Positions 9,386-34,355 of a stretch of DNA of 64,000 bases are shown here, piece after piece. Under the pieces are notes generated by a model. That model saw nothing but the letters and a program-made list of their open reading frames with translations, had not been told where the DNA came from and ran no database searches. A program made the translations under genes and the position numbers. This stretch comes from Bacteroidales bacterium (GTDB taxonomy: Bacteria; Bacteroidota; Bacteroidia; Bacteroidales; P3), in NCBI GenBank assembly GCA_009785425.1, contig WQWI01000002.1:1-64000 (forward strand), in the 5' to 3' direction. The first letter of the stretch is position 1; the number at the start of each line of letters is the position of its first letter.

Positions 9386-10702
9386 TTACGGTGTAGGGAA
9401 ATGTGCAGTTGTTGAAACAATTTCCTCTCCGTCCCACACAATCGTAATTGTTACCGGAGCATATGTTCTGGTTTCAGCAACATTAATGTTTGCAGTTCCG
9501 CTGAAATTGCCGGTATCACCTGTGATGATAAGAGCAGGTGCATATTGAGTTCCGAAACTAATCCAAAATGCTTGAGAACCGCCTTGCATAATTTGAATTC
9601 CAAACGCTCTACCATCACCACCAATCATTTCTACGCTTGGGATAGTAAATACATAGGTTCCTGCAAAGGTTTCAGCGTCAACACCTGAACTTGAAGAGAA
9701 CGCAAATACAGCCGACTCCCAACCGGTACCTTCTCCTATTGTGCTACCGTGAATTTGGACTGTCCACTCCTCTGAAGGGTCGATTGGATCGACTGGTCCT
9801 TCGCCAGGAATACCAGTCCACTCGAGAACTTCGTCAGTAACCGTAGTTCCACCTGTAAATAAACGATTTCCTCTGTTTTCTTCTCGATCCCAACTCCAAT
9901 CCAATGTTCCGTCTGCGAGTCTCCAGACATACTTGTATTGAAGACCTACCGGAACATCATTAATAGTTACAGACCACGTACCGCTGGTATAAGTCATAAC
10001 AAATGATTGGGCAATATCCCAAGCTCTACCAGGGAAACTACTAACAATACCAACTTCAGCACCGTCAGGAAGTGCCGGACCTGTCATATTAAACGTAACA
10101 TTATACGTAACCGGAGGGATACAAGGTGCTGCATTATTTGCCCAGTTTTTCACAACGAAGAAAGCCACAGAATTATCTGCATCAACGGCAGCAAAATCTT
10201 GCTCATAGCCACCTGCACCATGGAAGCCATCTTCAAGTACACCTACTTCCGGACGATTTGGCTCAAAGAAAACGTTAAGGATTCCTGCATCGGCATCATT
10301 TCTTCCCCATTGGAAAGGCCAGTCTGCATTACCATCTCCGTCTAATGCTACAGGCTTTAGTTCCAGCCCATCATACCATGGAAGGGTAATTTTGTACCAC
10401 GTTTGAGTGCCTTCAACTCTTTCGAACATATAGTCAGAAGGATTGGCGAATGCATCTGCCCAACCATTGAAAGAACCAACAGCCATAATTCCGTTGCAAG
10501 GCTCATGTCCTGGAGGAACAGCAACAGCAATTGCCATTGTAAAGAATCCCGGACCCGGAGGGGCAATAACAGGTGCTTCTTCCCAATCTTGAGGTACTGG
10601 TGGCGGCGGAGGTGCCACCGGATCATCGTCTCTATTACAAGACGTCGTGAGTGCTAATGCCGATGCTGCAAGGGCAAAAGCAAGAAATTTGAATTTTTTC
10701 AT
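9386..10702 (-). CDS. SusE/SusF-like starch-binding outer-membrane lipoprotein
   Basis: Lipobox (ALTTSCNRDDD); CBM-like repeats (MAVGSFNGWADAF..., YKYVWRLADGTLDWSWDREENRGNRLF). Third gene after SusC/SusD. Confidence 0.75.
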   Translation of the reverse strand: MKKFKFLAFALAASALALTTSCNRDDDPVAPPPPPVPQDWEEAPVIAPPGPGFFTMAIAVAVPPGHEPCNGIMAVGSFNGWADAFANPSDYMFERVEGTQTWYKITLPWYDGLELKPVALDGDGNADWPFQWGRNDADAGILNVFFEPNRPEVGVLEDGFHGAGGYEQDFAAVDADNSVAFFVVKNWANNAAPCIPPVTYNVTFNMTGPALPDGAEVGIVSSFPGRAWDIAQSFVMTYTSGTWSVTINDVPVGLQYKYVWRLADGTLDWSWDREENRGNRLFTGGTTVTDEVLEWTGIPGEGPVDPIDPSEEWTVQIHGSTIGEGTGWESAVFAFSSSSGVDAETFAGTYVFTIPSVEMIGGDGRAFGIQIMQGGSQAFWISFGTQYAPALIITGDTGNFSGTANINVAETRTYAPVTITIVWDGEEIVSTTAHFPTP

Positions 10703-10741: not shown

Positions 10742-12508
10742 TTAAAGTTCGAATCCGGGATTTTGTCTAAGGTTTTGGTTTGCCATAATATCATTGAACG
10801 GTATCGGATAAATGTTAAAGTGACTTAACACTGTTGTACCTGCTGGTATGCCACCTCTCCATTCCCAAGAAGGTCCTGAGGTAAATCTGTTGAAACGCAC
10901 GAGGTCGGTTCTGCGATGTCCTTCCCAAAAAAGTTCTCTTCCGCGCTCGTCAATAATCCAATTTAGGTCGAAATTAGAGATATTCGGCAATCCTGCTCTT
11001 GCTTGTAGTTCGTTAAGATTCGCAATCGCTGCTCCTCTATTTCCTCCGCTACCGCCACGTTCAATGGCTTCTGCATAAATCAGAAACATTTCTGCTAAAC
11101 GGAAAAGCGGGAAAGTATTATCAGCAAATTCACGTTGCGGGTCGTTGCCAAAAGGTCGCTCCTCATCCATATAACGTTGAAACAGGAAGCAACCTTCATT
11201 AGGACCACAAACGGTGCAAGCACCCGGCGTTCCGTGAGCATAGAAGCTTCCGGTGGTATCTAAAGTTCTTTCACAACCTTGAACAACCATTCTTGAAGGA
11301 ATGTTGCGAAACTTAAATGTAGCCATACCACTCAATGCAAAATTATCCGTGTTGGCACCGATAGACGTGCTTGGACCCACAAACAAAAATCGCCTGTCGT
11401 TATCTCGGTCAAAAAGGTTTACAAACTGACCTCTTACACGGGATCCTGCCCAATTTGCATTTAAAAACATACCGTAATGCAACAACTCTGCTCTATGATT
11501 TACTTGATGTTCACTGTTAGATGCTACATTTATCAAAAAAGTTACACCTGAGAACGTTCTGGCGTGAACACCGTGAAAAAATAGACCCCAGATCATTTCC
11601 GGACTATCTTGGTTATCATTCAAAAACAAATGTTCGTAGTTTGAATGGAGTGAGAACACACCGGAACTGATGACTCTGTTTGCAAATTCTATTGCACTTG
11701 TGTAGAACTGTGTGTTGTTGCCCGGATTTCCCACGGGGCTTGTATAAACGTTTGCATTGAGATATATTCGTGCAAGCAATGCCCATGCAGCAGCCTGACA
11801 AACACGTCCTCGTTCGTTGGTTCCGGCAGGTCTTAATCCATTATCGGCTAAATAAAGCAACTCGCTTTCGATCCAACTGAAAAGCATTGCACGCCCTGTG
11901 TTTGCATCCTCGTGCTTTTGACTTGGTATTGTGCCAAAAGGCATCGTTTCATCAATAAACGGTGGGTTTGCAAAGACATCCATCAACACCCAATACTGAA
12001 ACGCACGAATAAAGCGTGCTTCAGCACGCATCACGGCGATTTCGGCACGGTCGGCATCCGAAAACCCTCCGAGATTGCTTGGGTCACTTTGACGCATAAA
12101 ATGGTTTGCAAACAGGATATTCAATATTGATCGGTTATATAATGCTCCCGAAAATGGATTTGTTGCATCAAACTCAATACTGTTCAATGCAGGAAGTCCA
12201 TCATCGCCCCAGTTGTCAAATGCTTCATCGGTTGGCAACGTTTGAACATTCCAAAACGTACGTGTGAAACCCGAGAAGCCCTCGTCCATTCCTGCAATAT
12301 CGCTTTGTCCGGCGGGTCCTTGCTGACCGGTAAGGGTCAGTGTTCCATAAACTCTTGCCAAAGCCATTCTAAAGCCCATAACATCCGTATAGACGTCATC
12401 TCCGGTTATATCATTTATCGGAAACCTGTCTAAATCGTTCAAGCAGGATGTGAATATAAACACCATTCCTGCTAAAATTAACGCTATTTTTTTTGTGATA
12501 TGTTTCAT
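10742..12508 (-). CDS. RagB/SusD family nutrient-uptake lipoprotein
   Basis: Signal with lipobox FTSCLNDLDRFP; GRAMLFSWIESELLYLADNG; C-terminal RLAEMFLIYAEAIERGG and RGRELFWEGHRRTDLVRF. Confidence 0.95.
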   Translation of the reverse strand: MKHITKKIALILAGMVFIFTSCLNDLDRFPINDITGDDVYTDVMGFRMALARVYGTLTLTGQQGPAGQSDIAGMDEGFSGFTRTFWNVQTLPTDEAFDNWGDDGLPALNSIEFDATNPFSGALYNRSILNILFANHFMRQSDPSNLGGFSDADRAEIAVMRAEARFIRAFQYWVLMDVFANPPFIDETMPFGTIPSQKHEDANTGRAMLFSWIESELLYLADNGLRPAGTNERGRVCQAAAWALLARIYLNANVYTSPVGNPGNNTQFYTSAIEFANRVISSGVFSLHSNYEHLFLNDNQDSPEMIWGLFFHGVHARTFSGVTFLINVASNSEHQVNHRAELLHYGMFLNANWAGSRVRGQFVNLFDRDNDRRFLFVGPSTSIGANTDNFALSGMATFKFRNIPSRMVVQGCERTLDTTGSFYAHGTPGACTVCGPNEGCFLFQRYMDEERPFGNDPQREFADNTFPLFRLAEMFLIYAEAIERGGSGGNRGAAIANLNELQARAGLPNISNFDLNWIIDERGRELFWEGHRRTDLVRFNRFTSGPSWEWRGGIPAGTTVLSHFNIYPIPFNDIMANQNLRQNPGFEL

Positions 12509-12607: not shown

Positions 12608-15600
12608 TTAAAATGTCAAACGTAATCCTAAATTAAACGTACGTGGAAACGGGAATGCGTTATTGTCGATACCGTTGTTCGCTGTTCTTTCAGGATCTAC
12701 GCCGCTGTATCCGGTTATCGTGAACACATTTTGAACGGTGAAGTTTGCCGAAAGATTGCCTCTGTTTCCGACTACACTTCCAAAATTGTACGTTGCCGAG
12801 ATATTGTCCATTCTCAAAAACGCTGCACTTTCGAGGTAGAAATCTGAAACTAACTGACGATTCCGAAAGCCCGAGCGGAGGATATTTTGCGTGGTGTTTT
12901 GCAAAAAACCACCACCGTTCAACACTTGAGAGTAGTTGGCAATATCCGCATTGATGTTGTTGAAAATATAGTTGCCGATATTTGAGCGCAACATCGTTGA
13001 AAACTGCCAGTTTCTCCAAGACACACGAGCATTAAACCCTAAAAACGCTACAGGCTCCGGATTTCCAAACATCTCACGGTTTGCTTGCATATAAGTCGCT
13101 GGAACTTCAATGGGGAATGGTCCGGCGAACTGTTGTCTAAATACAAAAAATGTGTTTGGTGCAAACCCAACGTTGTGCATTTGGATATGTTGACCTACAC
13201 CACCACTGATACCACCGATCAAAATACCAATATCATCGTCATCATCATTCAAGGTGAGTTGAGTAATTTCTCGTCTGCTCACAGTAAAATTAAGTCCTAG
13301 TTCAAGCATCAAATCATTGGTTTGAATCGGAATATAATTTAATGCAATTTCGATGCCTTGGTTTTGCATGCTACCGATGTTTCTAACCATGCGGTTGGTA
13401 AAATTAGAGCCAATGGGCAAATTCACATCGTTAAGGAGATTGGTTGTTGTTGAGTGGTATGCATCGATTGTTCCGGAGATTCGACCACCCAAAAATGCCC
13501 AATCCACACCGACGTTCCACTGTGCGGTTTCTTCCCAACCACGTGTTCCGTCAAAAGCTGTCGGACGCCACATTTGCACCCATCGAGGGGTTCCATCTTC
13601 GTTATATCCCATACGAACCATCGCTGTGCCTGTACTCAAACCGTAGCGTGGAATATGGTCATAAAGTCCGATACCATCCTGCTGTCCGGTAACGCCCCAA
13701 CCTGCACGTAATCTCAACGATGTTACAAACGGATTGTTGACCAAGAATTGCTCTCTATCCAAACGCCACGCCACAGAGGCTGCCGGGAACACACCCCAGC
13801 GGTTGTCAGGTGCAAAGCGTGAACTTCCATCTGTACGCAACGAGAATTGGAACATATATCTGTCGTCAAAACTGTATTGCATACGCCCAAAAAACGAAAT
13901 CAACACACTTTCGTACAAACGCGTTGGGAATGTTGGCATCGCCCCAACAACGGTTTCTCTGTCGTATTCAAGATACGGAAAGTTTTGATGTTCTGTTTGC
14001 AAACTATGGTAAGAGTAACCTGTCATAATATCAATGCTGTGTCTGCCAAAATTTCTTGCATAATTGAGATGAGCATCGAAAAGCAGGTCGGTACGCGTTT
14101 GGTCGTGTTGTTGATGACGCCCAACACCAAGAAATCCTGGTGCCCACGGTGCCCACGTATTGGTTCCAAAACCATTGACTAGATCGAAACCAAAGTTTGC
14201 GCTTGCCGACAAACCTTCAATCGAATGCAATCTATAAGTCGCTTGGATATTACCAAACAAGCGATTTCCTGTACCCAAGTCCTGACGGGATTCAAGTACC
14301 GAAAGCGGGTTGCTTGTCGCCATTGTGTTTATGTTTCTTATAGTTCCCGGTGGAGTTGGTCCCGTTGGGGATTCCCATTGCCAAAATCCGTTATAACGCT
14401 CCATATCGGCAGCTCTTACGGGTTTTGTAGGATCCATACGGATTGCAGCACCGATGGCACCGCCGTCACCAAAACGGCTTTGTTGGTGTGACCCTCTAAC
14501 GTTGGCGTTTATATTCAAATGGTTTCTGAAAAAACTTGGTCTGAGAGAAACGGCAGCCGTTGTTCTATTAATATGGTCTGTTCTGAGGACACCGTTTTGG
14601 TGGAAATTTCCAATCGAAACACGGTAAGGGAAGTTTCGTGTAAAAGCCCCTGAAATGGCAACATTATTGTCTGTCGTAAACGCCGCACGGCGATAGATTT
14701 CACTTTGCCAACACGTGTTTGCAAAACGCTGTTCGCCATCCACCCAGTAGCCCAAACGATCTAATTGGACTTGTGTTACACCCGGAAAAGTTTCAACGAG
14801 ATTTCTAAATTGACTTGCAGAAAGCACATCCACTTGGCGAGCCACGGTTGCGATGCTGTTTACTGTTGAAACTTCAACGTTTATTTGCCCCGGCTGAACG
14901 CCACGTCCGCTTTTGGTTGTAATGATAATTACACCATTCGATGCACGAGAACCAAAAATAGCGGTTGCCGAAGCATCTCTCAAAATGGTGATATTGTAGA
15001 TATCGTTTGGATTTAGCGACGATAATGGGTCGGTTTGTCCTCCAATTCCTGAATTACTTACTGGTAACCCGTCAATCACAATCAGCGGGTCATTACTCGC
15101 ATTCAACGACGAGCCACCTCTAATTCTGATGCGGTTTCCATCTCCGGCACGACCTGTTGACGGTGAAACGTGAACACCGGCAGCCGTTCCAACGAGAAGC
15201 GATGCGGGACTGCTAAAAACACCCTGTCTGAAATCGGCTTCACCGATGGTGGTTACGGCACCGGTCAATCGTTCGCGAGTTGCCGTACCGAAACCGATAA
15301 CAACAACTTCGCCCAAGCCGATTGCATCTGTTCTCATAGTAACATTTACCGTAGTTCGTCCGGCAATATCAATTTCTTGTGTTTCCATTCCTGTGAAAGA
15401 GAACACGAGGTGTGTGTGTTCGGCTGACATGGTAATAGAAAAGCGTCCGTTAATGTCCGTTACCGTTCCGATCAGCGGACTTGATCCTCTTACAATAATT
15501 GACGCACCTGGAATTCCGAGATTGTCATCGGCACTGATAACCGTTCCCGTTATCGTGCGTTGAGCCGTTGCCGAAAAACCCAAACACAGGATTAGGGCAG

Positions 15601-15634
15601 CCGGCAGTACAAGAAAGTTTAAGATTCGTTTCAT
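12608..15634 (-). CDS. SusC/RagA family TonB-linked outer-membrane receptor
   Basis: Carboxypeptidase-regulatory-like N-terminus (ITGTVISADDNLGIPGASIIVRG), TonB plug (IRGGSSLNASNDPLIVIDGLPV), C-terminal FPFPRTFNLGLRLTF. Confidence 0.97.
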   Translation of the reverse strand: MKRILNFLVLPAALILCLGFSATAQRTITGTVISADDNLGIPGASIIVRGSSPLIGTVTDINGRFSITMSAEHTHLVFSFTGMETQEIDIAGRTTVNVTMRTDAIGLGEVVVIGFGTATRERLTGAVTTIGEADFRQGVFSSPASLLVGTAAGVHVSPSTGRAGDGNRIRIRGGSSLNASNDPLIVIDGLPVSNSGIGGQTDPLSSLNPNDIYNITILRDASATAIFGSRASNGVIIITTKSGRGVQPGQINVEVSTVNSIATVARQVDVLSASQFRNLVETFPGVTQVQLDRLGYWVDGEQRFANTCWQSEIYRRAAFTTDNNVAISGAFTRNFPYRVSIGNFHQNGVLRTDHINRTTAAVSLRPSFFRNHLNINANVRGSHQQSRFGDGGAIGAAIRMDPTKPVRAADMERYNGFWQWESPTGPTPPGTIRNINTMATSNPLSVLESRQDLGTGNRLFGNIQATYRLHSIEGLSASANFGFDLVNGFGTNTWAPWAPGFLGVGRHQQHDQTRTDLLFDAHLNYARNFGRHSIDIMTGYSYHSLQTEHQNFPYLEYDRETVVGAMPTFPTRLYESVLISFFGRMQYSFDDRYMFQFSLRTDGSSRFAPDNRWGVFPAASVAWRLDREQFLVNNPFVTSLRLRAGWGVTGQQDGIGLYDHIPRYGLSTGTAMVRMGYNEDGTPRWVQMWRPTAFDGTRGWEETAQWNVGVDWAFLGGRISGTIDAYHSTTTNLLNDVNLPIGSNFTNRMVRNIGSMQNQGIEIALNYIPIQTNDLMLELGLNFTVSRREITQLTLNDDDDDIGILIGGISGGVGQHIQMHNVGFAPNTFFVFRQQFAGPFPIEVPATYMQANREMFGNPEPVAFLGFNARVSWRNWQFSTMLRSNIGNYIFNNINADIANYSQVLNGGGFLQNTTQNILRSGFRNRQLVSDFYLESAAFLRMDNISATYNFGSVVGNRGNLSANFTVQNVFTITGYSGVDPERTANNGIDNNAFPFPRTFNLGLRLTF

Positions 15635-15689: not shown

Positions 15690-15720
15690 CAAAGATACAA
15701 ACTTTATTTGTAATTAACAA
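15690..15720 (-). promoter_or_regulatory. Promoter upstream of susC-like gene
   Basis: CAAAGATA (rev. TATCTTTG) 15690-15697, N20, CAA 15718-15720. Confidence 0.6.
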
Positions 15721-15964: not shown

Positions 15965-16177
15965 ATGAATCCTGTTTTAATTTATCCGTCCAACTCCGAA
16001 GGGGCAAAGATCATTAATGATGTTGCTGAATATAGTGGTGCAAAGATTGTCAAATTTCCTAAAGAATATATTGATATTATTGGCGATTATTTGTTTGCAA
16101 AAAGTATTGAAGAGGGCATGGAATCCCCCGAAGTGCCTGAGGAAGAGATTTTTAAAATCTTGAAACGATGCAAGTAA
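15965..16177 (+). CDS. Small putative antitoxin paired with RelE/ParE-type toxin
   Basis: 70-aa ORF MNPVLIYPSNSEGAKIINDVAEYSGAKIVKFPKEY..., overlapping the toxin start by 10 nt. Confidence 0.65.
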   Translation: MNPVLIYPSNSEGAKIINDVAEYSGAKIVKFPKEYIDIIGDYLFAKSIEEGMESPEVPEEEIFKILKRCK

Positions 16178-16443
16178 AATATCGCAAAACTTTCGAGAAG
16201 GACATTTCTAAAATTCGCTTACAGTCCGTCCTTGACGAAATAATGCTTCAGATTACTACTGTAAAAAAGTGCAATTCTATCACTGATTTTGTTCTTCTAC
16301 CTAATGTTACAAAACTTGTTAATGAGAAAGATTGCTATAGGATAAGGATAGGGAGTTACAGAATCGGGGTAATAGTTGTTGACGACATCGTGCATTTTGT
16401 GAGATTTGGTACGAGGTCTAAAATTTACAATATTTTTCCATAA
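16168..16443 (+). CDS. RelE/ParE-superfamily toxin
   Basis: 91 aa; KYRKTFEKDISKI ... LVNEKDCYRIRIGSYRIGVIVVDDIVHFVRFGTRSKIY. Confidence 0.85.
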   Translation: MQVKYRKTFEKDISKIRLQSVLDEIMLQITTVKKCNSITDFVLLPNVTKLVNEKDCYRIRIGSYRIGVIVVDDIVHFVRFGTRSKIYNIFP

Positions 16444-16448
16444 AAAAA

Positions 16449-19400
16449 CTATTGCTTGATAATCCTCACCGAAGCATTACCAATCCTAACGATATACATA
16501 CCATTCGCTAAATGCGAAATATCAATCTCAGTTATTGGATAAGTTGCAGCCTGTGCCAATACCAATCTTCCGGAAAGGTTAAAAACCTTGACGATTTGAT
16601 TGTTCGTTCCGGCAGGTAGTTCTATAAACAGAATGCCGTCAATTACCGGATTGGGGTATAGAATTATAGGCTGGCTATCTTCTGTTTCCACGACTACAAT
16701 GTCGGTGGAAGGCGGATCAAAAGGTGGTGCTTCTCTGAATGGGATATTCGCAGCTCGTACTTCAAAGAAATTATTCGGACCTCGCTCAAGAATTCTGTAG
16801 TGATGGAAATTTCCCCACGTAGCCGGTCGGTCTATAAGCCTATGCGCTGATTCGTTATTTTCCACAGTTTCCGGTCTTATGTAATTGCGTATCATATCGT
16901 GCCAAGCCTCAATACGTGGAATGCTCCTATCCACATGAAACAGATCGTTGTCCGGATGAATTAGCTGGTTGAGATAAATCAGATATTGCTCACGAAATTC
17001 CTCAATAGCCAGAATTTTATCAATTAACGGACGATTTCCCCCTCCCCAACGCAATACATTTTCCGTTCCCGGATCAAAGAAATTATTTAAACCTGTACCA
17101 AGCACATTATCGTAATCCCAAGGAATATAAAAAACTCTTCCTGTATGACTTTCAAAATACAAATAAAAATTATTCCCATTTCCCCAATGGCCATCCCATT
17201 GGCCAAGCACAACGTTTACAGCATACGCTCTGAGAAATAAATCTACATCAAAGTAGGTTGTAATCCAAGTTTTGAAAGCATCTCCGGTGAGTGTATTCAA
17301 ATTTCTAACCCAGTTGTAAAACTCTTCTCTTGCTGTTGCGATATTTCCTCGATTTGTTTTCAAATCATAGGTGTAATACCTACTTTGTGATGGATCAAGG
17401 CGAACATCTCTGACACCCATTCTCTGACGTGCATTATTCAATGTCAAATCGGCAGGACCTCCTACAGGCTGGCATTTCCAAAGATTTCCGTTGTCTGTTT
17501 CAAAACGACCGATACCACGCCTTTCAGACAAAAATGTTTCGTCAACCTGTTCAATCATGGCATAAATTCCAAAATAAGCCGGTGGTCCATCTCCTACCTT
17601 GATATAAAGTCTAGCATAACTTGCACGCGGTGCAGTCCAAACACCAAAACGATGAAACAAATCAAAACTGTATATTTCGCGGGCAAACATCGCATCGTCT
17701 TTATGCCATTTCATAATGAGTCTACGTAAGCCGTGAAAACGCTGATTGCTGTTGGCACTTGCAAAATTTATTGAAAAATGTGCATTTTGCCAAACCGGAT
17801 TATCCGGATTGTGCACACCACCGTGAGATATTTCCGGTCTTCTTCGGCTTGTATTACCACGTATGCGAAAGCCTATTTCATGCGGTAATCTTGTTTCAAT
17901 ACCATCTTTATAGAAAACAAAATTTCCACGAACTCTCTCTAAATGATGAGGGTTCATATCAAAATATCTCAACGATCTATTCCACTCGTCAACCGAGACT
18001 TCAATCGTTATGGTTGGCAGTGCTGATATGTCAAAAACCGGATGAGGGTGCAAAGCCGGAGGTTGTGGCAGATACGGTATTTGCGGTACTCGTGTTAGTC
18101 CTGCTGTTGATGTTCCGTTAAATGCGTTCGGCGTGGGTGTTGTGAAAAAGAATGGTCCTGTTCCGTCCGGAATACGTGAAAATGACCTGTTTCTGATATC
18201 GTAAATACCGTCATCACGTGCTCTTGTTAAGCGGTCTATCTCGTTTCCGTTCGGATCTACGAGTTTAATAATCAATATGCGTTGTGCAGTTAATCCGGTT
18301 GTAAACGAACACGGATTGTGGCGTCCCATAAGGGTAAATAATTGTCCGGGCAGAATGATTTGATCGGCACAACCTACCCATGTAAGCCTGTTGTCATTGG
18401 GTGGAAAACTCCCTCCTCGATCGGAATTGGTATTGTAATAAATTCGAAAACCCTCGAGGTTTATAGGGTAATTTCCAAGATTTATCAGCTCATAAAAAAG
18501 TTCCGAATCGCTTCCAACGCCACTAACTTCGTTGAGTCGGATTACTGTGTAATCAGCCGGAGTTGTTCTGCGTATAGAGATGATTGAATCTCTAACATCA
18601 ACACGAATTCTATAGTAGCCGGCTGCTGTAACTCGCATATTTCCGGACTGCTGAAATCCGTTAAAAACATGTTCTTCGTCGTTATCAGGAACATCAGATC
18701 CGATACCTCTAAATTCTCTTCCATCCCATGCCCTGCTCGGAGCAAACTTAAACTGTGTGCCGGCTTCAAAAAAGATTGTTGTTGTAAATGTACAGCCGTT
18801 GTTGGATGGGGTCATTGTTACAGCAGAGCTCCAAGTCCAATCATTAAATGTGCCTATCAAAAATAAATTTTGAAAACATGGTGCTCCCGGTATTTCCGTC
18901 AAATAGCCTGGACTTACGATATTGTGTAGTCTTGGTCCGTTTGTTGTACCGGGTGTTACTGCTGCCCAAGCCCAAGAGCCGTCATCCATACGAGAGTAGC
19001 CCGGTCTTATGTTTCCATATGCTCCTGAATTCACATTGCCCGGTCGCGAAGCGTTTGGGGTTCCCCATCCGGGAAGCGGTACATCTCCACGGATAAACAC
19101 ATCAATAGGTTCTCCGGCAGGATCAACAAGAGCAATTTTCAAAGTTTGTTGATTGGATAACCCTCCTGTAACCGTCCAACTCATTCCAGGCCACGCAGGA
19201 CTATTTTGCAATTGAGAGGGGGCATCCGGACCACTATTATTGCCATCGCTACGACCATTTCTAAAAAGAATAATGCGATACGCTCCGGCAGGAATACTAT
19301 CACCTGCTTGTCCAACCCATTCAGTACCGGTTGTTAGAGATGTGCTGTAAGAAGGACCCTCATTTCTTTGAAGTCTTACGCCTTCCAAATCAATTGGATC

Positions 19401-19541
19401 TGTACCTGAGTTAAAGATTTCAACGAACAGAGCGGTATTTTCTCCGCTGATTTCGTTAAGTCTCAAATTCGAAAAGTCTGTTTGTGCCCATAAACTCAAC
19501 GAAAGGATAAGAGCAAAAAAGGTTGTGATGTGCTTTTTCAT
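16449..19541 (-). CDS. Secreted CotH-kinase-family protein with lamin-tail domains, SusE/F-like starch-binding module and T9SS type A sorting domain
   Basis: CotH motifs FRIRGNTSRRRP, AYFGIYAMIEQVDETFL, GQWDGHWGNGNNFYLYFESHTGRVFYIPWDYDNVLGTG. LTD-like LRLNEISGENTALFVEIFNSG and IRLNEVSGVGSDSELFYELIN. SBD LFLIGTFNDWTW...YYRIRVDVRDSIISIRR. CTD YPNPVIDGILFIELP...NGMYIVRIG. Confidence 0.87.
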   Translation of the reverse strand: MKKHITTFFALILSLSLWAQTDFSNLRLNEISGENTALFVEIFNSGTDPIDLEGVRLQRNEGPSYSTSLTTGTEWVGQAGDSIPAGAYRIILFRNGRSDGNNSGPDAPSQLQNSPAWPGMSWTVTGGLSNQQTLKIALVDPAGEPIDVFIRGDVPLPGWGTPNASRPGNVNSGAYGNIRPGYSRMDDGSWAWAAVTPGTTNGPRLHNIVSPGYLTEIPGAPCFQNLFLIGTFNDWTWSSAVTMTPSNNGCTFTTTIFFEAGTQFKFAPSRAWDGREFRGIGSDVPDNDEEHVFNGFQQSGNMRVTAAGYYRIRVDVRDSIISIRRTTPADYTVIRLNEVSGVGSDSELFYELINLGNYPINLEGFRIYYNTNSDRGGSFPPNDNRLTWVGCADQIILPGQLFTLMGRHNPCSFTTGLTAQRILIIKLVDPNGNEIDRLTRARDDGIYDIRNRSFSRIPDGTGPFFFTTPTPNAFNGTSTAGLTRVPQIPYLPQPPALHPHPVFDISALPTITIEVSVDEWNRSLRYFDMNPHHLERVRGNFVFYKDGIETRLPHEIGFRIRGNTSRRRPEISHGGVHNPDNPVWQNAHFSINFASANSNQRFHGLRRLIMKWHKDDAMFAREIYSFDLFHRFGVWTAPRASYARLYIKVGDGPPAYFGIYAMIEQVDETFLSERRGIGRFETDNGNLWKCQPVGGPADLTLNNARQRMGVRDVRLDPSQSRYYTYDLKTNRGNIATAREEFYNWVRNLNTLTGDAFKTWITTYFDVDLFLRAYAVNVVLGQWDGHWGNGNNFYLYFESHTGRVFYIPWDYDNVLGTGLNNFFDPGTENVLRWGGGNRPLIDKILAIEEFREQYLIYLNQLIHPDNDLFHVDRSIPRIEAWHDMIRNYIRPETVENNESAHRLIDRPATWGNFHHYRILERGPNNFFEVRAANIPFREAPPFDPPSTDIVVVETEDSQPIILYPNPVIDGILFIELPAGTNNQIVKVFNLSGRLVLAQAATYPITEIDISHLANGMYIVRIGNASVRIIKQ

Positions 19542-19543
19542 GT

Positions 19544-21424
19544 CTATTTTGGAAAAACGATAATCGCCGACTTGCGTGCAGGGATTACATAATTATCTAA
19601 TGTTATGGTTTCGCCCGTTTTGATGTCCGTGCCGATAGGCTGATACAAACTCAAAATTTCTGCAAACCTGGTTGGATCAATTTCTCTGTCTTCCGTAGTA
19701 TTATTGACGATAGTCATCACCAATTCCTCATCGTTGAAACGGAAATACACAAACACGTTGCGGTCGGGAACAAACTGCATCATTCGTCCGTTATGTACGG
19801 CTGATGAGGTTCTACGCCAGTTGAAAAGCGTACTTACGTAGTTGAACATTCTGTTCTGCTCCGGAGTACGTCCTGCTTCTGTCATTGCATTTATTGTGTC
19901 GTCCGGATGACCGCCCGGCATCATCATACGCTCCTGTCCGTGTCCCAATGCTTCGCTCACCATCAACAATTCCGTACCTTGATAAATTTGCGGTATTCCA
20001 CGCAAAGTGGCAAGCATCGTATAAATACGCTTCAATTTGTAAACATCGCCACCCAGTTGGTGCAACAAACGATGTACATCGTGATTTTCTGCAAAAATAA
20101 CCATCATAAACGGATTGGCATACAAAAAATCTTGTGCCAAAACGTTGTAAACTCTTAACATTCCCGTAAGCCAGCCTGTCCAGTCTTGTTCGCGCTTTGC
20201 CTGAATCATTGCATCTTTCAGCGGAAAATCCATACCGCTTGGTGCGAATGAATTAAATCCGCAACGTCCTTCGTTTGCACCGGCTTGCCAAAAAGCCGTC
20301 ATTGCAGGATTTCCAAACCAGGCTTCGGCAACGATGTTGAGATTTGGGTATTCGTACATAATTCTACGCGTCCATTCTGCGATGCCGTGTTTGTAGTTAT
20401 ACGGATAAGTATCCACACGCAAGCCGTCGAGGTTGGCAAACTCTATCCACCAAACTGCCATTTGTGCAAGATAAGTTACCACCATTGGGTTATGCATATT
20501 CATATCTGCCATTGAGCGGTCGAACCAGCCGTGGATCAAAGCATTCAAGTCATATTGTGAGCGGTGCGGATCGCTTTGGGTCGCCATTTGATGGCTTGTT
20601 CGTCTGAACTCCTGAGACGGTCTGTTAATCCAATCACTCATCGGCAAATCGTTAAACCACCAATGTGCTGTTCCGTGATGATTTGGAACAATATCTTTAA
20701 TCACCTTCATTCCTCTGGCGTGGGCTTGTCTGACCATTTCTCTGTAAAGTTCGTTGGTTCCAAAACGTGGGTCAATCAAGAAATAGTCCGCAGTTGCATA
20801 AGAATGATAAGAGAATGTTGCTTGATTGTCGAGGGTCAAAGGCGTAGGCCAAATCACGGTTGCTCCCAAACTTTGAATATAGTCCAAACTATTGATGATG
20901 CCTTGAATATCTCCACCGTGTCGTCCATCCGGATTATTACGGTTGACTCTTTCAATCGTGGCAGGGTGCGAGTCGTTGGTTGGATCACCGTTTACAAAAC
21001 GATCGGACATAATTAGATAAATCACATCTGCAGGTCCAAAGCCTTGACGTTCGGCAGAGCCCGGTCTGCGTTCCCACAATTCATAATTGTGAATAACTCT
21101 TCTTCTGCCGATGGTGAACTCCAAACGATAGGTTCCGGGTTGGGCATTTTCGGCAATGTCCAATTCAACAAACAAAAAATTGGAGTTTTCCGGTCTGTAC
21201 ACGCTCAAAACGTCAACGCCTGCATCGAGGCTTCGCACTTCGGCAGCACCGATATTATTGCCGTAAACCAATAGTTGCAACGGAACAGGGTTTTTCATTC
21301 CGACCCACCAGTTTGGAGGTTCAACGCGTTCGATTTGACCGGCTCTTACGCTCGGCTGGGCGGACATTGGCAAATACGCAATTAGGAAAAATGCCAACAA
21401 TAGGAACAGGAAATGCTTCTTCAT
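19544..21424 (-). CDS. GH13 alpha-amylase/neopullulanase (SusA-like)
   Basis: Signal MKKHFLFLLLAFFLIAYLPMSAQ; DVIYLIMSDRFVNGD; GLRVDTYPYN, VAEAWFGN, FAENHDVHR catalytic motifs. Confidence 0.93.
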   Translation of the reverse strand: MKKHFLFLLLAFFLIAYLPMSAQPSVRAGQIERVEPPNWWVGMKNPVPLQLLVYGNNIGAAEVRSLDAGVDVLSVYRPENSNFLFVELDIAENAQPGTYRLEFTIGRRRVIHNYELWERRPGSAERQGFGPADVIYLIMSDRFVNGDPTNDSHPATIERVNRNNPDGRHGGDIQGIINSLDYIQSLGATVIWPTPLTLDNQATFSYHSYATADYFLIDPRFGTNELYREMVRQAHARGMKVIKDIVPNHHGTAHWWFNDLPMSDWINRPSQEFRRTSHQMATQSDPHRSQYDLNALIHGWFDRSMADMNMHNPMVVTYLAQMAVWWIEFANLDGLRVDTYPYNYKHGIAEWTRRIMYEYPNLNIVAEAWFGNPAMTAFWQAGANEGRCGFNSFAPSGMDFPLKDAMIQAKREQDWTGWLTGMLRVYNVLAQDFLYANPFMMVIFAENHDVHRLLHQLGGDVYKLKRIYTMLATLRGIPQIYQGTELLMVSEALGHGQERMMMPGGHPDDTINAMTEAGRTPEQNRMFNYVSTLFNWRRTSSAVHNGRMMQFVPDRNVFVYFRFNDEELVMTIVNNTTEDREIDPTRFAEILSLYQPIGTDIKTGETITLDNYVIPARKSAIIVFPK

Positions 21425-21453: not shown

Positions 21454-21517
21454 CAAAGATACGATTTTTTTTTAACTTTGACAATCCTTGCAAAATCCAT
21501 TTTTTTTTGTATCTTTG
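21454..21517. promoter_or_regulatory. Divergent promoter pair between GH13 operons
   Basis: Minus: CAAAGATA 21454-21461 with CAA 21482-21484. Plus: TTG 21488-21490 with TATCTTTG 21510-21517. Confidence 0.6.
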
Positions 21518-21543: not shown

Positions 21544-23721
21544 ATGAAACAGCTTTTCGTCACTTTTTTCTGTTTATTGGCATTTAGTGCGAAAGCACAA
21601 CTTACACATACGCATAGTAGCACAAGAGTTGCACAATCTATGCCCGTAGGTGTTAGAGACGGTATCAACGTCAATGCCCCCAACGAGGGTGATGTAACGC
21701 TTGTGCTTCGTGTGCCAAGGCGAACAAGCCCGCAACACACCTGGCAAAACCCCGATATTCCTCAAACTTACGAACTCGGCAGAAACAGAGTGCATGTGAT
21801 TGGCGATTTCAACAATTGGCAACCTTCGAGTCGCTATGAGATGAAAACAGACAGTATCTTTTACTGGATTACATTGACCGGATTAGACCCGAATCGGCTC
21901 TATCGTTTTCAATATCTCGTTGATGATACACTACGAATTACAGACCCATTTACCGAATTGATTTTAGATCCTTGGAACGATGGAATGATCAACCAACATG
22001 TCGAGATTTTTCCGGACTTACCGCCTTTTCCGGAAGGCTATACAACCGGATTAGTGGCTACATTTCAAATCAACAGACCAGAGTTTGAATGGTCGCAAGA
22101 AGCCTTGGATTTTGTACCTCCACGACAGCAGGATTTGATTATTTACGAATTGTTGATTCGAGATTTTATGCAGTTTCCGAGCTATGATCGAATCATGGAC
22201 TATAAATTTCAACATCTGATTGATTTGGGTATTAATGCGATAAAAATCTTGCCGAATACGGAATTTGATAGAAACAACAGTTGGGGCTATAACCCGAATC
22301 ACATGTTTGCCGTTGACAAAGCATACGGTTCGCCTGAGGCGTTTAAGCGATTTATCGACAAGGCACATAGCCATGGCATTGCGATAATTATGGACATTGT
22401 TCTCAATCATCAAACCAACCATTCGCCCATGACGAAGTTGTTTTGGGATTATGAAAACCACCGTCCGGCTACTGACAATCCTTGGTTTCATGCAGAACCC
22501 ACACATCGCTGGAATGTGTATTTTCAGATGAATCACCGTAGTGTGCATACGGTTTATTTCAGCCAACGTGTGGCGGAATTTTGGATGAAGGAGTTTAGAA
22601 TTAACGGTATTCGCTTTGATTTATCCAAAGCATTTACATTCTTAGGTCCACATCCGCAAGGAACCGACTATATGGAACGTGCCTGTCCGGTACGCATACA
22701 ATACTGGAAAGATTATGCAGATTTTATGTGGAATATCAATCCAGATTTTTACATAATTTTGGAACATTTTGCCGACAACGATGAAGAGCGTACGTTGGCT
22801 AATCACGGCATTTCGGAAGGACGTCCGGGCATGATGCTTTGGGGCAATATGAATTGGGCATACAGCTGGCTGGCGATGGGCTACTCTGAAGGCTCTTCAT
22901 TGGATTGGGCGTTTGCAAAAGGTGGTCGCACCGACAGTCAAGGTAATGTTGTTGGTGGTCGAGGCTGGAAGGCTCACAATTTGATTGTGTATGCTGAAAG
23001 CCATGACGAAGAGCGTGTAGCAACAAGAGTTGGGGGCTTTGTTAATACTGATGGCTCCAGAGTTCATTACGGTTATGGTCGAACATCTCCGGATGGAACA
23101 TACAATACGAGACATCTTCAAGCAGAGCGAAAGGCACTTGTAGCTACCTTTATGATTCCACTTCCCGGTCCAACAATGATTTGGCAGTTTGGCGAATTTG
23201 CTTACGATGGTCCTCTTAATCTTTGTTATACCCCGGTAGAATTAGGCGGAACGGGAATTGGTACTTTTCCCGCAGACCAAGACGGTTTGGGTGGTCTTCA
23301 CGGTAATTGTCGAACAGGTCGTGCACCGTTGTTGTGGCACTATTTGGAGCGAGCTGAAAACAGACACACGTTCAACGTTTTCAGAGGATTGATTTATCTC
23401 AGACTGAACCATCCTGCCTTTACAAATCAACGGAATTTCGTTTATCGAACAGGTGGTGATGCAACTGACCTTCGACGTTGGATTATTGCAGAATCGTATG
23501 TTGCTGATTCGAGTGTGATTATTCTCGGAAATTTTGATGTAGTAGCAAGGGATTTTATAGTTCCCGGCATTCCGGTAAACGGCACTTGGTATAATTTTTT
23601 TGGAGCAAATCATTTTAACATAGGCTCCGTTGTTGTAACAAATCACAGGATGAACATTACTCTTCCGCCCGGTGCATATATCATTTTCACAAAAGAGCGA
23701 CAGGACAATCCTACAAAATAA
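21544..23721 (+). CDS. GH13 alpha-amylase with N-terminal CBM48/E-set-like module (tandem copy 1, no T9SS tag)
   Basis: Signal MKQLFVTFFCLLAFSAKAQ; VHVIGDFNNWQPSS; GIRFDLSKAF, IILEHF, AESHDEER. Confidence 0.92.
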   Translation: MKQLFVTFFCLLAFSAKAQLTHTHSSTRVAQSMPVGVRDGINVNAPNEGDVTLVLRVPRRTSPQHTWQNPDIPQTYELGRNRVHVIGDFNNWQPSSRYEMKTDSIFYWITLTGLDPNRLYRFQYLVDDTLRITDPFTELILDPWNDGMINQHVEIFPDLPPFPEGYTTGLVATFQINRPEFEWSQEALDFVPPRQQDLIIYELLIRDFMQFPSYDRIMDYKFQHLIDLGINAIKILPNTEFDRNNSWGYNPNHMFAVDKAYGSPEAFKRFIDKAHSHGIAIIMDIVLNHQTNHSPMTKLFWDYENHRPATDNPWFHAEPTHRWNVYFQMNHRSVHTVYFSQRVAEFWMKEFRINGIRFDLSKAFTFLGPHPQGTDYMERACPVRIQYWKDYADFMWNINPDFYIILEHFADNDEERTLANHGISEGRPGMMLWGNMNWAYSWLAMGYSEGSSLDWAFAKGGRTDSQGNVVGGRGWKAHNLIVYAESHDEERVATRVGGFVNTDGSRVHYGYGRTSPDGTYNTRHLQAERKALVATFMIPLPGPTMIWQFGEFAYDGPLNLCYTPVELGGTGIGTFPADQDGLGGLHGNCRTGRAPLLWHYLERAENRHTFNVFRGLIYLRLNHPAFTNQRNFVYRTGGDATDLRRWIIAESYVADSSVIILGNFDVVARDFIVPGIPVNGTWYNFFGANHFNIGSVVVTNHRMNITLPPGAYIIFTKERQDNPTK

Positions 23722-23743: not shown

Positions 23744-26700
23744 ATGAAACAACTTTTTATCACAGTCTTTTCACTTTTGGCACTCAGTGCGAGTGCACAA
23801 CTCATTCGAACGTATCCCGAATTTTTTAGGGAAACCGATACGGTTAGAATTATTTTTGATGCAACCCAAGGAAACAGAGCACTGGCAGGCTTTACCGGAA
23901 ATGTGTTTGTTCACACAGGGGTAATTACGAACACAAGTACAGGTCCAAGTGACTGGCAACATGTTATCACAGGTTGGGGAACAAACATACCCGGCAGAAA
24001 CCAAGCCACACGTATCGGACAGGATTTGTATGAATTTATTATCACTCCGAGCGTTCGTGAATTTTATGACGTAACGAATGATACCATAACCGTTGAAAGA
24101 ATTGCCATTCTTTTTAGGAATGCCAGCGGAAGTATAGTTGGAAGAGCAGAGGGTGGTGGTGATATCTTTATTGATTTGTTTTTGGGCGATTTTGGAATGC
24201 GTATCACCTCTCCGCAGCCCGGGCAGTTTTTCGATCCGACCGATAACGTTGAATTTTCTGTGGTAACATCATCAAATGCAGATATTACATTTTTCTTGAA
24301 TGGTACGGAGGTAACGTCTGCAACAGATGTTAATGCACTAACACATACGTACAGCACTTTTTCTGCCGAACGTTATGAGTTTGTTGCAAGAGCCGTATGT
24401 CCAACGTATGGGAATTTTTACGATACATTGTTTCTCAACATTCGTTCGCCAAGAGTTTACGAGCCTGTTCCAGCCGGAGCAAGAGACGGCATCAACACTA
24501 ATTTTCCAAATCCCGGCGATGTAACGTTTGTACTTCGTGTGCCCAAGCGTACAAGCCCACAGCCTACAGTCCAAAGTCCAAATACTCCTCAAACGTACGT
24601 GCTTGGCAGAAACAGCGTTCATATGATTGGCGATTTCAACAACTGGCAACCTTCAAGTGCGTATCAACTGAAAGGGGATACGGTTCGTTTGGCTTATTGG
24701 ATTACATTGAGCGGATTAGACCCCGATAATTTATATCGCTTTCAATATCTCGTTGATGAAACGCAACGTATCACCGACCCATACACCGAGTTGATTTTAG
24801 ACCCTTGGAACGATCATTGGATCAACCATTATTCTCAACTACACAGCGGATTTGATATTTTTCCGGACATGCCGGAATTTCCAACCAATTATACCACCGG
24901 ACTTGTGGCCACATTCCAAATCAACAGACCTGAATTTCAGTGGTCGCCGGAAGCTTTGGCATTTGTTCGTCCGGTTCAGCAAGATTTGATTATTTACGAA
25001 TTGCTGATTCGCGACTTTATGATGTTTCCGAGTTACGACAGAATAATTGAACATAAATTTCAACACTTGATTGATTTGGGCATCAATGCCATCAAAATTT
25101 TGCCAAATATGGAATTTGACGGTAACAATAGTTGGGGCTATAATCCAAACCATATGTTTGCCGTAGACAAAGCCTACGGCACAGCAGAATCGTTCAAACG
25201 CTTTATCGATAAGGCACATAGCCACGGCATTGCCATTATTTTGGACATCGTTCTCAACCACCAAACGGGAAGTTCACCATTGACACAATTGTTTTGGGAT
25301 TCTCAAAACAACCGTCCTTGTGCTGATCATAACCCTTGGTTTCATCCGGAAGCGACACACCCGTGGAACGTGTTTTACCAAATGAACCACAGAAGCAAAC
25401 ATACCGTATATTTCAGCGAACGCGTGGCGGAATTTTGGATGAGAGAATTTAGAGTTGACGGTTTCCGCTTCGACTTATCCAAAGCATTTACGTTTTTGGG
25501 GCCCAATAATGATCCGGCTATGAGCGCTCACAATCCGGTACGAATTCAGTATTGGAATAATTTTGCGGATTTTATGTGGAATATCGATTCCACGTTTTAT
25601 GTAATTTTGGAGCATTTTGCCGTCAATACCGAAGAGCGTGATTTGGCTAACCATGGTCTATCTGAGGGACGTCCCGGTATGATGATTTGGGGAAATATGA
25701 ATCATGCATACAGCCAGTTGGCTATGGGCTGGGCTTCAGGTTCTTCGTTGGATTGGGCGTTTGCAAAAGAAGGACGTCGAAATGCAGCAGGTAATTTCAC
25801 CGGAAATCGTGGTTGGGGTGCTCACAATTTGATTGTGTACGCCGAAAGTCATGACGAGGAGCGTGTATCAACACGAGTTGGCGGGTTTGTTAATGCTGCC
25901 GGAACAAGAATTCATGCCGGATATGGTAATAGAACTGCGGACGGTAGCTATAGCACCAGATATCGTCAAGCAGAGCGAAAAGCTCTCGTAGCAGCCTTTA
26001 TGATTCCACTTCCAGGTCCAACAATGATTTGGCAGTTTGGCGAGTTTGCATTCGATGGTCCATTGAACATTTGCTACAGTCCGTCACATTTGGGCGGTTC
26101 GGGAATCGGTACATTTCCCGCAAATCAATCCGGTTTAGGTGGTGGTGCAGGCAACTGCCGAACAGGTCGTTCACCGTTGCTGTGGCACTATTTGGAAAGA
26201 GAGTCTAACCGTTTTACGTTTTACGTTTTTAGCGGACTAATCAATATGCGATTGAACCATCCGGCGTTTACAGATCAAAGAGATTTCTTCTATCAAACAG
26301 CAGGAGGTAATACTCATCTTCAACGTTGGATTATTGCAGAATCAATGGTTCCGGACTCAAGCGTAGTTATTGTAGGAAATTTTGACACGATTCAAAGAGA
26401 GTTCACCATTCCGGGCATTCCGGCAAACGGCGTTTGGCACAGTGTTTTTACGACAGACGAGGTTACTGTAACGAACAACACGTTAAACATTACCTTGCCA
26501 CCAGGTGGATACAGGGTATTCACCAGATCAGAAGGCTGGATTAACGAAAATGCAACAAGCGTTGTAGGTTTCGAGAGAGCAGAAATTCCGATGAGTATTT
26601 TCCCAAATCCTGCACAAGACGAAATCTTTGTGGACTTTGAAGCCGAAGGACAGCGCGAAATTCAGATATTTAATCTAAGTGGACAACTGATGCAAACGAT

Positions 26701-26815
26701 TAGCACACGTAGCCAAAACGTGAGAATGGACGTGTCGAATTTGCGAGCAGGCTCGTATATTCTCATCGTTACAGATGGTGCAAGCATTTCATCACAACAG
26801 ATCATTATACAGTAA
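23744..26815 (+). CDS. GH13 alpha-amylase with extra N-terminal module and T9SS C-terminal sorting domain (tandem copy 2)
   Basis: Closely similar core to the upstream gene; C-terminal MSIFPNPAQDEIFVDFEAEGQREIQIFNLSGQLMQTI...LRAGSYILIVTDG. Confidence 0.93.
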   Translation: MKQLFITVFSLLALSASAQLIRTYPEFFRETDTVRIIFDATQGNRALAGFTGNVFVHTGVITNTSTGPSDWQHVITGWGTNIPGRNQATRIGQDLYEFIITPSVREFYDVTNDTITVERIAILFRNASGSIVGRAEGGGDIFIDLFLGDFGMRITSPQPGQFFDPTDNVEFSVVTSSNADITFFLNGTEVTSATDVNALTHTYSTFSAERYEFVARAVCPTYGNFYDTLFLNIRSPRVYEPVPAGARDGINTNFPNPGDVTFVLRVPKRTSPQPTVQSPNTPQTYVLGRNSVHMIGDFNNWQPSSAYQLKGDTVRLAYWITLSGLDPDNLYRFQYLVDETQRITDPYTELILDPWNDHWINHYSQLHSGFDIFPDMPEFPTNYTTGLVATFQINRPEFQWSPEALAFVRPVQQDLIIYELLIRDFMMFPSYDRIIEHKFQHLIDLGINAIKILPNMEFDGNNSWGYNPNHMFAVDKAYGTAESFKRFIDKAHSHGIAIILDIVLNHQTGSSPLTQLFWDSQNNRPCADHNPWFHPEATHPWNVFYQMNHRSKHTVYFSERVAEFWMREFRVDGFRFDLSKAFTFLGPNNDPAMSAHNPVRIQYWNNFADFMWNIDSTFYVILEHFAVNTEERDLANHGLSEGRPGMMIWGNMNHAYSQLAMGWASGSSLDWAFAKEGRRNAAGNFTGNRGWGAHNLIVYAESHDEERVSTRVGGFVNAAGTRIHAGYGNRTADGSYSTRYRQAERKALVAAFMIPLPGPTMIWQFGEFAFDGPLNICYSPSHLGGSGIGTFPANQSGLGGGAGNCRTGRSPLLWHYLERESNRFTFYVFSGLINMRLNHPAFTDQRDFFYQTAGGNTHLQRWIIAESMVPDSSVVIVGNFDTIQREFTIPGIPANGVWHSVFTTDEVTVTNNTLNITLPPGGYRVFTRSEGWINENATSVVGFERAEIPMSIFPNPAQDEIFVDFEAEGQREIQIFNLSGQLMQTISTRSQNVRMDVSNLRAGSYILIVTDGASISSQQIIIQ

Positions 26816-26917: not shown

Positions 26918-28267
26918 ATGAACACAATTCAAAAACCAAATCTACCCCTCAAGCAACTTTGGGCTTTAAGTTTCGGATTCTTCGGCGTACAAATCGCATT
27001 TGCTTTGCAAACGTCAAACGTCAGTAGAATTTTCGCCACATTAGGTGCAGATCCTCATACGCTCAGTTATTTTTGGATCGTACCTCCGCTAACCGGATTG
27101 CTTGTACAGCCCATCGTTGGTATGCTTAGCGACCGCACTTGGACCAAGTGGGGAAGGCGTATCCCCTACTTGATTATCGGTACACTTGTTACCGCTTTGC
27201 TTTTGATTATTCTACCCAATTCCGGAGCACTTGGTTTAGCTGTCGGCACTGCGATGATTTTCGCTGCAACGTGTTTGGTATTGTTCGGTGTTTCGACAGA
27301 TATGGCACTACAGCCGTTTAGAATGCTCGTTGGCGATATGGTTAACGAAAAGCAAAAAAGTTTGGCTTTTTCGATACAAAGTTTTTTGTGCAATGGAGGA
27401 AATATCCTTGCGTATCTTTTGCCGATTGCACTTGTAACCTGGGGCGTTTCCAACGTTGCTCCGGTGGGGATGATTCCCGATTCAGTCAAATGGACATTCT
27501 ATATTGGTGCGGCATTGCTCATCTTGTGTGTTGCCGTTACTGTATTTCGAACGAAAGAATTACCTCCGGCTGAGTATGCAAAATACAACGCCATTGACGA
27601 AAGCAAGGTAAGAGAAGAAAAGGTCAATATCTTTGAGTTGCTGAAAAAAGTACCGAACGTCTTTTGGACTGTAGGTCTTGTACAATTTTTCTGTTGGGCG
27701 GCTTTCCTATACATGTGGACTTACACAACAGGTGCTATTGCAGGCTCCGTTTGGGGTACAACCGATGCAAGCAGTGCACTGTTTCAGAGTGCCGGTAATT
27801 GGGTTGGTGTACTTTTTGCTGCACAAGCGATTGGCGGTGTACTTTGGGCAATGGTTATTCCAAAATTCAAAGACATCAAAATGGCGTATGTGGCGAGTCT
27901 TGGGATTGGTGCAATCGGGTTCATTCTCACAAGATTTATCGGACCGGAAGTTAGTATTTTAGGTATGACAATGTCGGGTCAATTTGCGTTACTTTTCCCA
28001 TTTTTTTTAGTGGGTTTCGCTTGGGCGGGAATGCTCTCAATTCCGTTTACATTATTGACAAACGCCTTGCAAGGCACAAGCCGAATGGGAACCTATTTAG
28101 GATTGTTTAACGGAACGATTTGTATTCCGCAAATCGTTGCAGCAGTTGCCGGAGGCGGATTACTCCTTTTGGTAGGCGGTAATCAGTCGAATATGCTTGT
28201 CATTTCAGGTATTTTATTGATACTTGGTGCGATTGCGGTGCATTTTATCAAGGTTGAAAAGAAATAA
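26918..28267 (+). CDS. SLC45-like MFS (maltose/oligosaccharide) transporter
   Basis: FGFFGVQIAFALQTSNVSRIFATLGADPHTLSYFWIVPPLTGLLVQPIVGMLSDRTWTKWGRRIPYL. Confidence 0.88.
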   Translation: MNTIQKPNLPLKQLWALSFGFFGVQIAFALQTSNVSRIFATLGADPHTLSYFWIVPPLTGLLVQPIVGMLSDRTWTKWGRRIPYLIIGTLVTALLLIILPNSGALGLAVGTAMIFAATCLVLFGVSTDMALQPFRMLVGDMVNEKQKSLAFSIQSFLCNGGNILAYLLPIALVTWGVSNVAPVGMIPDSVKWTFYIGAALLILCVAVTVFRTKELPPAEYAKYNAIDESKVREEKVNIFELLKKVPNVFWTVGLVQFFCWAAFLYMWTYTTGAIAGSVWGTTDASSALFQSAGNWVGVLFAAQAIGGVLWAMVIPKFKDIKMAYVASLGIGAIGFILTRFIGPEVSILGMTMSGQFALLFPFFLVGFAWAGMLSIPFTLLTNALQGTSRMGTYLGLFNGTICIPQIVAAVAGGGLLLLVGGNQSNMLVISGILLILGAIAVHFIKVEKK

Positions 28268-28278
28268 AAACAAAATCT

Positions 28279-28306
28279 GTAGGGGCGAGGCATGCCTCGC
28301 CCCTAC
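28279..28306. repeat. Perfect 28-bp palindrome gtaggggcgaggcatgcctcgcccctac
   Basis: 14+14 bp perfect palindrome; same family as 34305-34336. Confidence 0.85.
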
Positions 28307-28325
28307 CATATTTAAATCAAAAATC

Positions 28326-30656: not shown

Positions 30657-30707
30657 GGCAGAGTACCACTTGCAGCATTTTTTCAAAAAAAACAAAAACA
30701 TACAGCT

Positions 30708-32798: not shown

Positions 32799-32806
32799 GC
32801 ATTTCC

Positions 32807-32838
32807 TTTGCTTTTCTCGATTATTTTGCTTATCTTTG
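32807..32838 (+). promoter_or_regulatory. Promoter for the tandem GH13 lipoprotein pair
   Basis: TTTG 32807-32810, N20, TATCTTTG 32831-32838. Confidence 0.6.
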
Positions 32839-32888
32839 TACCATTGGACATGAAACAAAATCAAACAAAAATTAAAACCATATCAACG

Positions 32889-34301: not shown

Positions 34302-34304
34302 ATC

Positions 34305-34336
34305 TTGTAGGGGCGACGCCTGCGTCGCCCCTACAA
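34305..34336. repeat. Palindromic element ttgtaggggcgacgc-ct-gcgtcgcccctacaa
   Basis: 15-bp perfect stem, 2-nt loop, between tandem GH13 copies. Confidence 0.85.
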
Positions 34337-34355
34337 TTTAATATCACATCATATA

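Follow-up and report, generated by a model that had tools for sequence, protein, structure and literature searches.

We analyzed a 64,000-nt stretch of DNA from a Bacteroidales bacterium (assembly GCA_009785425.1, contig WQWI01000002.1, positions 1 to 64,000 of the forward strand; here, the window). The source genome is a MAG, 71% complete and divided among 49 contigs, of which the one holding the window is 119 kb long. At its center of interest, the window encodes a 1,030-aa multidomain protein in which a CotH kinase domain is combined with a signal peptide, two lamin tail domains (LTDs), a SusE/SusF-type starch-binding module, and a type IX secretion system (T9SS) tail. The features of the protein and of the surrounding locus are as follows:

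16449..19541, minus strand: gene for the LTD-CBM-LTD-CotH-T9SS protein, 1,030 aa, very probably exported (ORF, translation, Pfam)
19482..19541, minus strand: likely Sec signal peptide (MKKHITTFFALILSLSLWAQ), read off the translation by eye
19098..19475, minus strand: lamin tail domain 1, residues 23 to 148 (PF00932)
18534..18860, minus strand: SusE/SusF-type module, residues 228 to 336, with W235, K265, and W272 (PF16411, alignment, PDB profile, AlphaFold, Foldseek)
18072..18551, minus strand: lamin tail domain 2, residues 331 to 490 (second PF00932 stretch)
16866..17780, minus strand: CotH kinase domain, residues 588 to 892 in Pfam and 496 to 927 as folded (PF08757, 5jd9 alignment, model)
16461..16661, minus strand: T9SS type A sorting domain, residues 961 to 1027 (PF18962 and TIGR04183)
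19544..21424, minus strand: SusA-like GH13 of the cyclomaltodextrinase/neopullulanase type, upstream of the CotH gene (PF00128, PF09087, PF10438)
21454..21484, minus strand: exact Bacteroidota-type promoter, TTG-N20-TAnnTTTG, about 30 nt before the SusA start
15690..15720, minus strand: separate exact Bacteroidota-type promoter of SusC-SusD-SusE/F
12608..15634, minus strand: SusC, TonB-dependent receptor (Pfam)
10742..12508, minus strand: SusD (Pfam)
9386..10702, minus strand: surface protein in the SusE/F position, after SusD (weak CBM20 match, 0.0084, below the cutoff)
21583..23721, plus strand: GH13 with a weak glycogen-binding-type CBM (Pfam)
23744..26815, plus strand: GH13 with a T9SS tail (Pfam), whose relatives adjoin CotH in other families (loci L068, L071, L080, L085, and L130)
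26918..28267, plus strand: MFS sugar transporter (Pfam)
28224..35765, plus strand: remainder of the alpha-glucan cluster, comprising a GH13, a GH77-CBM20, and two more GH13s

The reading frame at 16449-19541 opens with an ATG and is unbroken over its 1,030 aa, and its domains follow one another in the order signal peptide, LTD, SusE/F-type module, LTD, CotH, and T9SS type A tail. The original prediction, made from the letters alone, had proposed this architecture at these positions, and each of its parts was recovered from the ORF, Pfam, or TIGR04183. Pfam matched CotH (PF08757) at residues 588 to 892 with 2.8e-40 and 139.2 bits (curated cutoff, 23.8), SusF_SusE (PF16411) at residues 228 to 336 with 1.8e-9 and 38.6 bits (curated cutoff, 27.5), LTD (PF00932) over two stretches with 1.3e-16 and 61.4 bits, and Por_Secre_tail (PF18962) at residues 961 to 1027 with 3.3e-11, the latter two likewise above their curated cutoffs; TIGR04183 agrees on the type A tail. 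The host genome encodes SprA and 28 type A tails, which qualifies the protein as T9SS cargo. We thus hold its identity and export with high confidence, and a location at the cell surface would follow. The recovered part of the genome has a single CotH gene, the one in this locus.

The stop codon of the SusA-like GH13 (19544-19546) is separated from the ATG of the CotH gene (19541) by 2 nt, as initially noted, and no exact match to TTG-N20-TAnnTTTG occurs between the two genes. About 0.8 kb, holding a small gene pair on the opposite strand, lies between the CotH gene and the SusC unit. As promoters precede SusA and SusC and none precedes the CotH gene, SusA and CotH are likely cotranscribed, with SusC-SusD-SusE/F predicted to form a second transcript. 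The coexpression originally suggested is therefore retained for the SusA-like GH13, with which the CotH gene apparently shares a promoter, and not for the whole Sus locus. The SusC/SusD pair and the alpha-glucan enzymes together identify the region as a Sus-type polysaccharide utilization locus. In the four genus mates searched (G186 to G189, against the window's genome, G000), SusA was not found, and the entire starch locus is probably missing from them too; the absence of SusA implies either a gain of the locus in this species or its repeated loss. Two further gene pairs were observed nearby. The pair between the CotH gene and SusC (15965-16443, plus strand) consists of small overlapping genes with a toxin-antitoxin look, the first of which has no Pfam match, and the other (7192-8669, minus strand) comprises an AbiEii-type nucleotidyltransferase toxin gene (PF08843) and an overlapping upstream gene that is probably its antitoxin.

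In an alignment of the SusE/F-type module with 42 relatives, chiefly SusE/SusF-like proteins, G230, W235, K265, W272, G308, and Y310 (module positions 12, 17, 47, 54, 90, and 92) are near invariant. Among these, W235, K265, and W272 sit in columns that are at least 90% conserved and correspond to the Trp/Lys binding-platform positions of SusF. A search of the PDB with a profile from this alignment recovered BT3088, a dextran-locus protein, as the best match, followed by SusF and SusE, and W235 aligned with the GxW-motif Trp of SusF domains a and b. By the chain offset these Trp residues are W177 and W287 of the published numbering, which are starch-binding residues. The AlphaFold model of the module has a mean pLDDT of 94.6, and Foldseek searches with it found the SusE/F fold that had been predicted, with SusF as the best match (4fe9; 1.8e-4), the X25 module of Ruminococcus bromii Sca5 second (7rpy), and then SusE and an amylase N-terminal domain. 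These matches make alpha-glucan binding by the module quite probable. The gene content around the module is starch-like and its top profile match is BT3088; as the latter leaves an alpha-1,6-glucan specificity possible, dextran or another alpha-glucan is a possible ligand.

The CotH domain retains both the NNFYLY and the WDYDN motifs, as first reported. In an alignment based on 5jd9, D783 corresponds to D228 and D809 to D251 of Bacillus subtilis CotH (the spacing in the aligned Bacillus chain is 23 residues, as between 228 and 251); mutants of these two residues have been described as inactive, both Asp being needed for activity (PMC7821199). Across 76 further CotH proteins from the order, D783 never varies and D809 is kept in 75 (one has Asn); D616, G557, G562, G658, and Y660 are invariant, E664 and K689 are each present in 75, and the RGN motif is likewise shared by the relatives and the 1,030-aa protein. 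The model of the domain (pLDDT 84.5) has B. cereus CotH in its Mg/AMP complex (5jda) as its best Foldseek match (3.3e-19; TM 0.75 on the target), and B. cereus CotH is also the only solved relative found in the PDB. The fold anticipated for this region was thus recovered with no loss of catalytic residues: judged by alignment, the active site is intact, and both the catalytic activity of the domain and its substrate are predictions.

A search for relatives across 393 genomes of the order assigned the parts of the protein to different sources. The CotH part matches stand-alone proteins of 460 to 510 aa (42 to 50% identity), the second LTD matches separate LTD-LTD proteins of two other Bacteroidales families (57 to 62% identity) that occupy unrelated loci (L066 and L067), and the CBM part matches SusE/F-like proteins; the fusion looks like a mosaic. 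Its exact architecture was found in this one MAG, and the 80 nearest CotH relatives in the genome collection all differ from it. A tree built from 102 CotH domains places the window CotH with seven stand-alone CotH proteins in an 8-row clade (100/97), whose sister is the CotH of a GH13-GH65-SusCD locus (L068). We considered whether this subfamily is starch-linked in general and rejected the idea, as about 9 of the 80 nearest relatives lie within 9 kb of a GH13, with many of the loci truncated. Side observations from this survey include the conserved pairing of an LTD-LTD protein with a small T9SS-tailed one (L066:8724-10338 and L067:3269-5039), a similar small protein that precedes CotH in L064, and a run of four consecutive CotH genes in a Brevinematales MAG (L211).

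Bacteroidota also have a common class of CotH-LTD-T9SS proteins of about 750 aa, which share CotH, LTD, and T9SS tail with the 1,030-aa protein and occur beside GH13 genes in 11 Bacteroidales families. Membership of the window protein in this class was rejected, as the 750-aa proteins form a separate CotH clade and have the reverse domain order, with CotH N terminal and LTD C terminal. To measure their linkage, the CotH loci of the order were picked by CotH similarity alone and their neighborhoods were annotated with profiles. Within the CotH-LTD-T9SS clade, a GH13 lies within 8 kb in 22 of 54 loci and within 500 bp in 16 of 54, against expected upper bounds of 5.1% and 1.3%, respectively, computed from the GH13 counts and sizes of 29 of these genomes; contig ends bias the linkage counts low, if anything. 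The corresponding binomial values (7e-15 and 1e-17) ignore relatedness, and the spread of GH13-linked loci over 11 of 26 Bacteroidales families is the safer statement. At least 11 changes of the GH13-link label are forced by well-supported branches of the tree. In the other CotH clades, 1 of 48 loci is GH13 linked, 26 of these loci being from the window's own family. Clustering of 572 neighbors placed a GH13 family at the top (9 families) and the T9SS-tailed GH13 second (4 families), with every other cluster in at most 3; CotH-LTD loci without a GH13 have no other recurrent partner, and their neighbors are mostly housekeeping genes. A phylum-wide starch link was rejected: among 50 full-length loci outside the order, a GH13 lies within 8 kb in 5 and within 500 bp in 2, which is near background, and both of the latter belong to the same class. 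This points to CotH-LTD as a widespread exported protein whose starch linkage is mainly a Bacteroidales trait; the protein is not starch specific as such.

Two genomes of family f89 (loci L085 and L130) encode a CotH-LTD-CBM-T9SS protein with an extra module at about residues 703 to 781 that matches the SusE/F profile (2e-9 to 5e-9) and, below the cutoffs, CBM20 and AMPK1_CBM. Its gene directly adjoins a GH13 and is placed between SusC-SusD-SusE and the genes that come next, and the f89 members are the only CotH-LTD-T9SS proteins seen with a starch-type CBM. As this fusion is independent of that in the window, a starch-binding module has become fused to CotH at least two times, on a different side of CotH in each case. 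The association of CotH with starch is hence not a one-off: it is recurrent in Bacteroidales, with a second fusion in f89, and its recurrence in many families makes it stronger than the sequence of the window by itself could tell. Proteins of about 1,100 aa with five tandem SusE/F-like modules are encoded next to a GH13 and a CotH-LTD gene in two loci (L071:14099-17410 and L080:9605-12919), the former having in addition a CBM9-like domain and a T9SS tail. A CotH relative in genome G321 (L065:8881-11642) adjoins a gene for a histidine phosphatase of branch 2 (phytase-like), followed by SusD and SusC, so that genes for a kinase-like and a phosphatase-like protein stand side by side. Candidate links of CotH to phytase (this one locus) and to polyphosphate (PPK2 near two loci) were rejected as too rare.

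The 1,030-aa protein may be compared with several known systems. It shares the CotH fold and both catalytic Asp residues with the Bacillus spore coat kinase (PF08757; 5jd9 and 5jda), from which it differs in its Sec/T9SS export, its LTDs and starch-binding module, and its placement in a starch locus with no spore context. With SusE and SusF of Bacteroides (4fch and 4fe9) it has in common the CBM fold, the Trp/Lys platform, and the type of locus; however, it has one such module embedded in a CotH protein and is T9SS cargo rather than a surface lipoprotein. The X25 module of Sca5 belongs to the amylosome of R. bromii, another host system, and the matched entry lacks CotH. The nearest precedent is the cellulosomal CotH proteins, such as Cthe_0239 of Clostridium thermocellum, with an LTD-LTD-Fn3-CotH architecture, and CseP (PMC6083626). 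These too are secreted parts of a polysaccharide-degrading surface machine and have LTDs ahead of CotH, whereas the 1,030-aa protein has no Pfam match to a dockerin, has a T9SS tail and a SusE/F-type CBM instead, and is associated with starch rather than cellulose. By this analogy, it would be a T9SS/Sus counterpart of the cellulosomal CotH-LTD proteins.

Set beside the domains, folds, conserved residues, operon arrangement, and recurrent GH13 linkage established computationally, our preferred explanation, which we put at slightly under even odds, is that the protein is exported, targets starch, and serves an alpha-glucan utilization locus as an accessory, bringing a catalytic CotH domain to starch. 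The protein would be made together with the SusA-like GH13; its signal peptide would take it across the inner membrane and the T9SS across the outer one, and its SusE/F-type module would hold it on or near the alpha-glucan. The LTDs may serve as beta-sandwich spacers or contact domains, and CotH would thereby come to lie close to starch and to the Sus proteins of the surface; its most likely activity there would be phosphotransfer to a surface protein or to a glucan-protein assembly. The parts of this explanation differ in strength: a functional tie to starch use is probable, while phosphotransfer to protein as the role of the CotH domain is a tentative proposal. Several observations count against the explanation as a whole: the CotH subfamily of the window consists of stand-alone proteins not generally linked to starch, the exact architecture was found in one MAG, CotH-LTD loci outside the order are near background for GH13, and the best PDB match of the module profile is a dextran-locus protein. 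Phosphorylation outside the cell, as originally put forward, agrees with the conserved catalytic residues, and nothing further supports it; we know of no ATP supply outside the outer membrane, which is the main difficulty for this proposal.

The scarcity of extracellular ATP favors a somewhat less probable reading, ranking next behind a catalytic CotH at starch, in which the protein is a noncatalytic adhesin or scaffold whose CotH fold attaches to a surface partner or contributes to the assembly of enzymes on starch, its kinase chemistry being unused. Such a role would fit the CBM and LTDs, whose folds serve for binding or spacing. The role of cellulosomal CotH proteins has been called unclear, and they have been proposed to be structural and/or regulatory kinase components (PMC12484212); for CotH of fungal cellulosomes, binding to the plant cell wall has been speculated (PMC8665504). 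Yet if CotH had a structural use alone, one would expect a tendency to lose the equivalents of D228 and D251, which are kept in the 1,030-aa protein and nearly all its relatives, along with K689, E664, D616, and the RGN motif.

We consider it improbable that the CotH domain is a phosphotransferase on a glycan or small molecule rather than on protein, phosphorylating, for instance, the glucan itself. All characterized CotH kinases act, to our knowledge, on protein, and we know of no precedent for glucan phosphorylation by CotH. The two independent fusions to an alpha-glucan-binding module would suit such an activity, as would the phytase-like gene and SusC-SusD beside the L065 relative, although this neighbor is a single case. 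A distant atypical secretory kinase, Fam20B, does phosphorylate xylose (PMC5865150).

Still less credible is a passenger gene, i.e., a mosaic T9SS cargo that lies in a starch locus by chance and contributes nothing to starch use. It is true that its closest CotH relatives stand alone and mostly do not adjoin a GH13, that relatives of the second LTD occur in unrelated loci, and that the starch locus is probably missing from the four genus mates; against this stand the SusE/F-type module within the protein itself, the 2-nt spacing from SusA with an apparently shared promoter, and the repeated, independent placement of CotH next to GH13 genes, seen in 11 families. An assembly artifact fusing unrelated genes, conceivable for an architecture seen in a single MAG of 49 contigs, is very hard to reconcile with one uninterrupted frame inside a 119-kb contig, GC content and codon usage like those of its neighbors, and the coherent starch locus that flanks it in both directions.

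In the open-access papers searched, we found no report of CotH in a starch or Sus locus. A bolder and rather unlikely extension is a hitherto unrecognized starch-linked phosphorylation system of Bacteroidales, in which CotH phosphotransferases would be exported, kept on alpha-glucan by starch-binding modules either fused to them or encoded nearby, and would modify surface Sus proteins or the glucan with a phosphate donor outside the cell. From its genomic contexts, CotH seems to be an accessory that recurs in bacterial starch utilization. CotH domains occur in the secreted polysaccharide-degrading machines of bacteria and fungi (PMC12484212). The recurrent starch link and the two fusions tie CotH to one nutrient and to few candidate partners, i.e., SusA, the T9SS-tailed GH13 enzyme, and SusC-SusD-SusE, and the question of whether extracellular CotH proteins are kinases or scaffolds thereby becomes directly testable.
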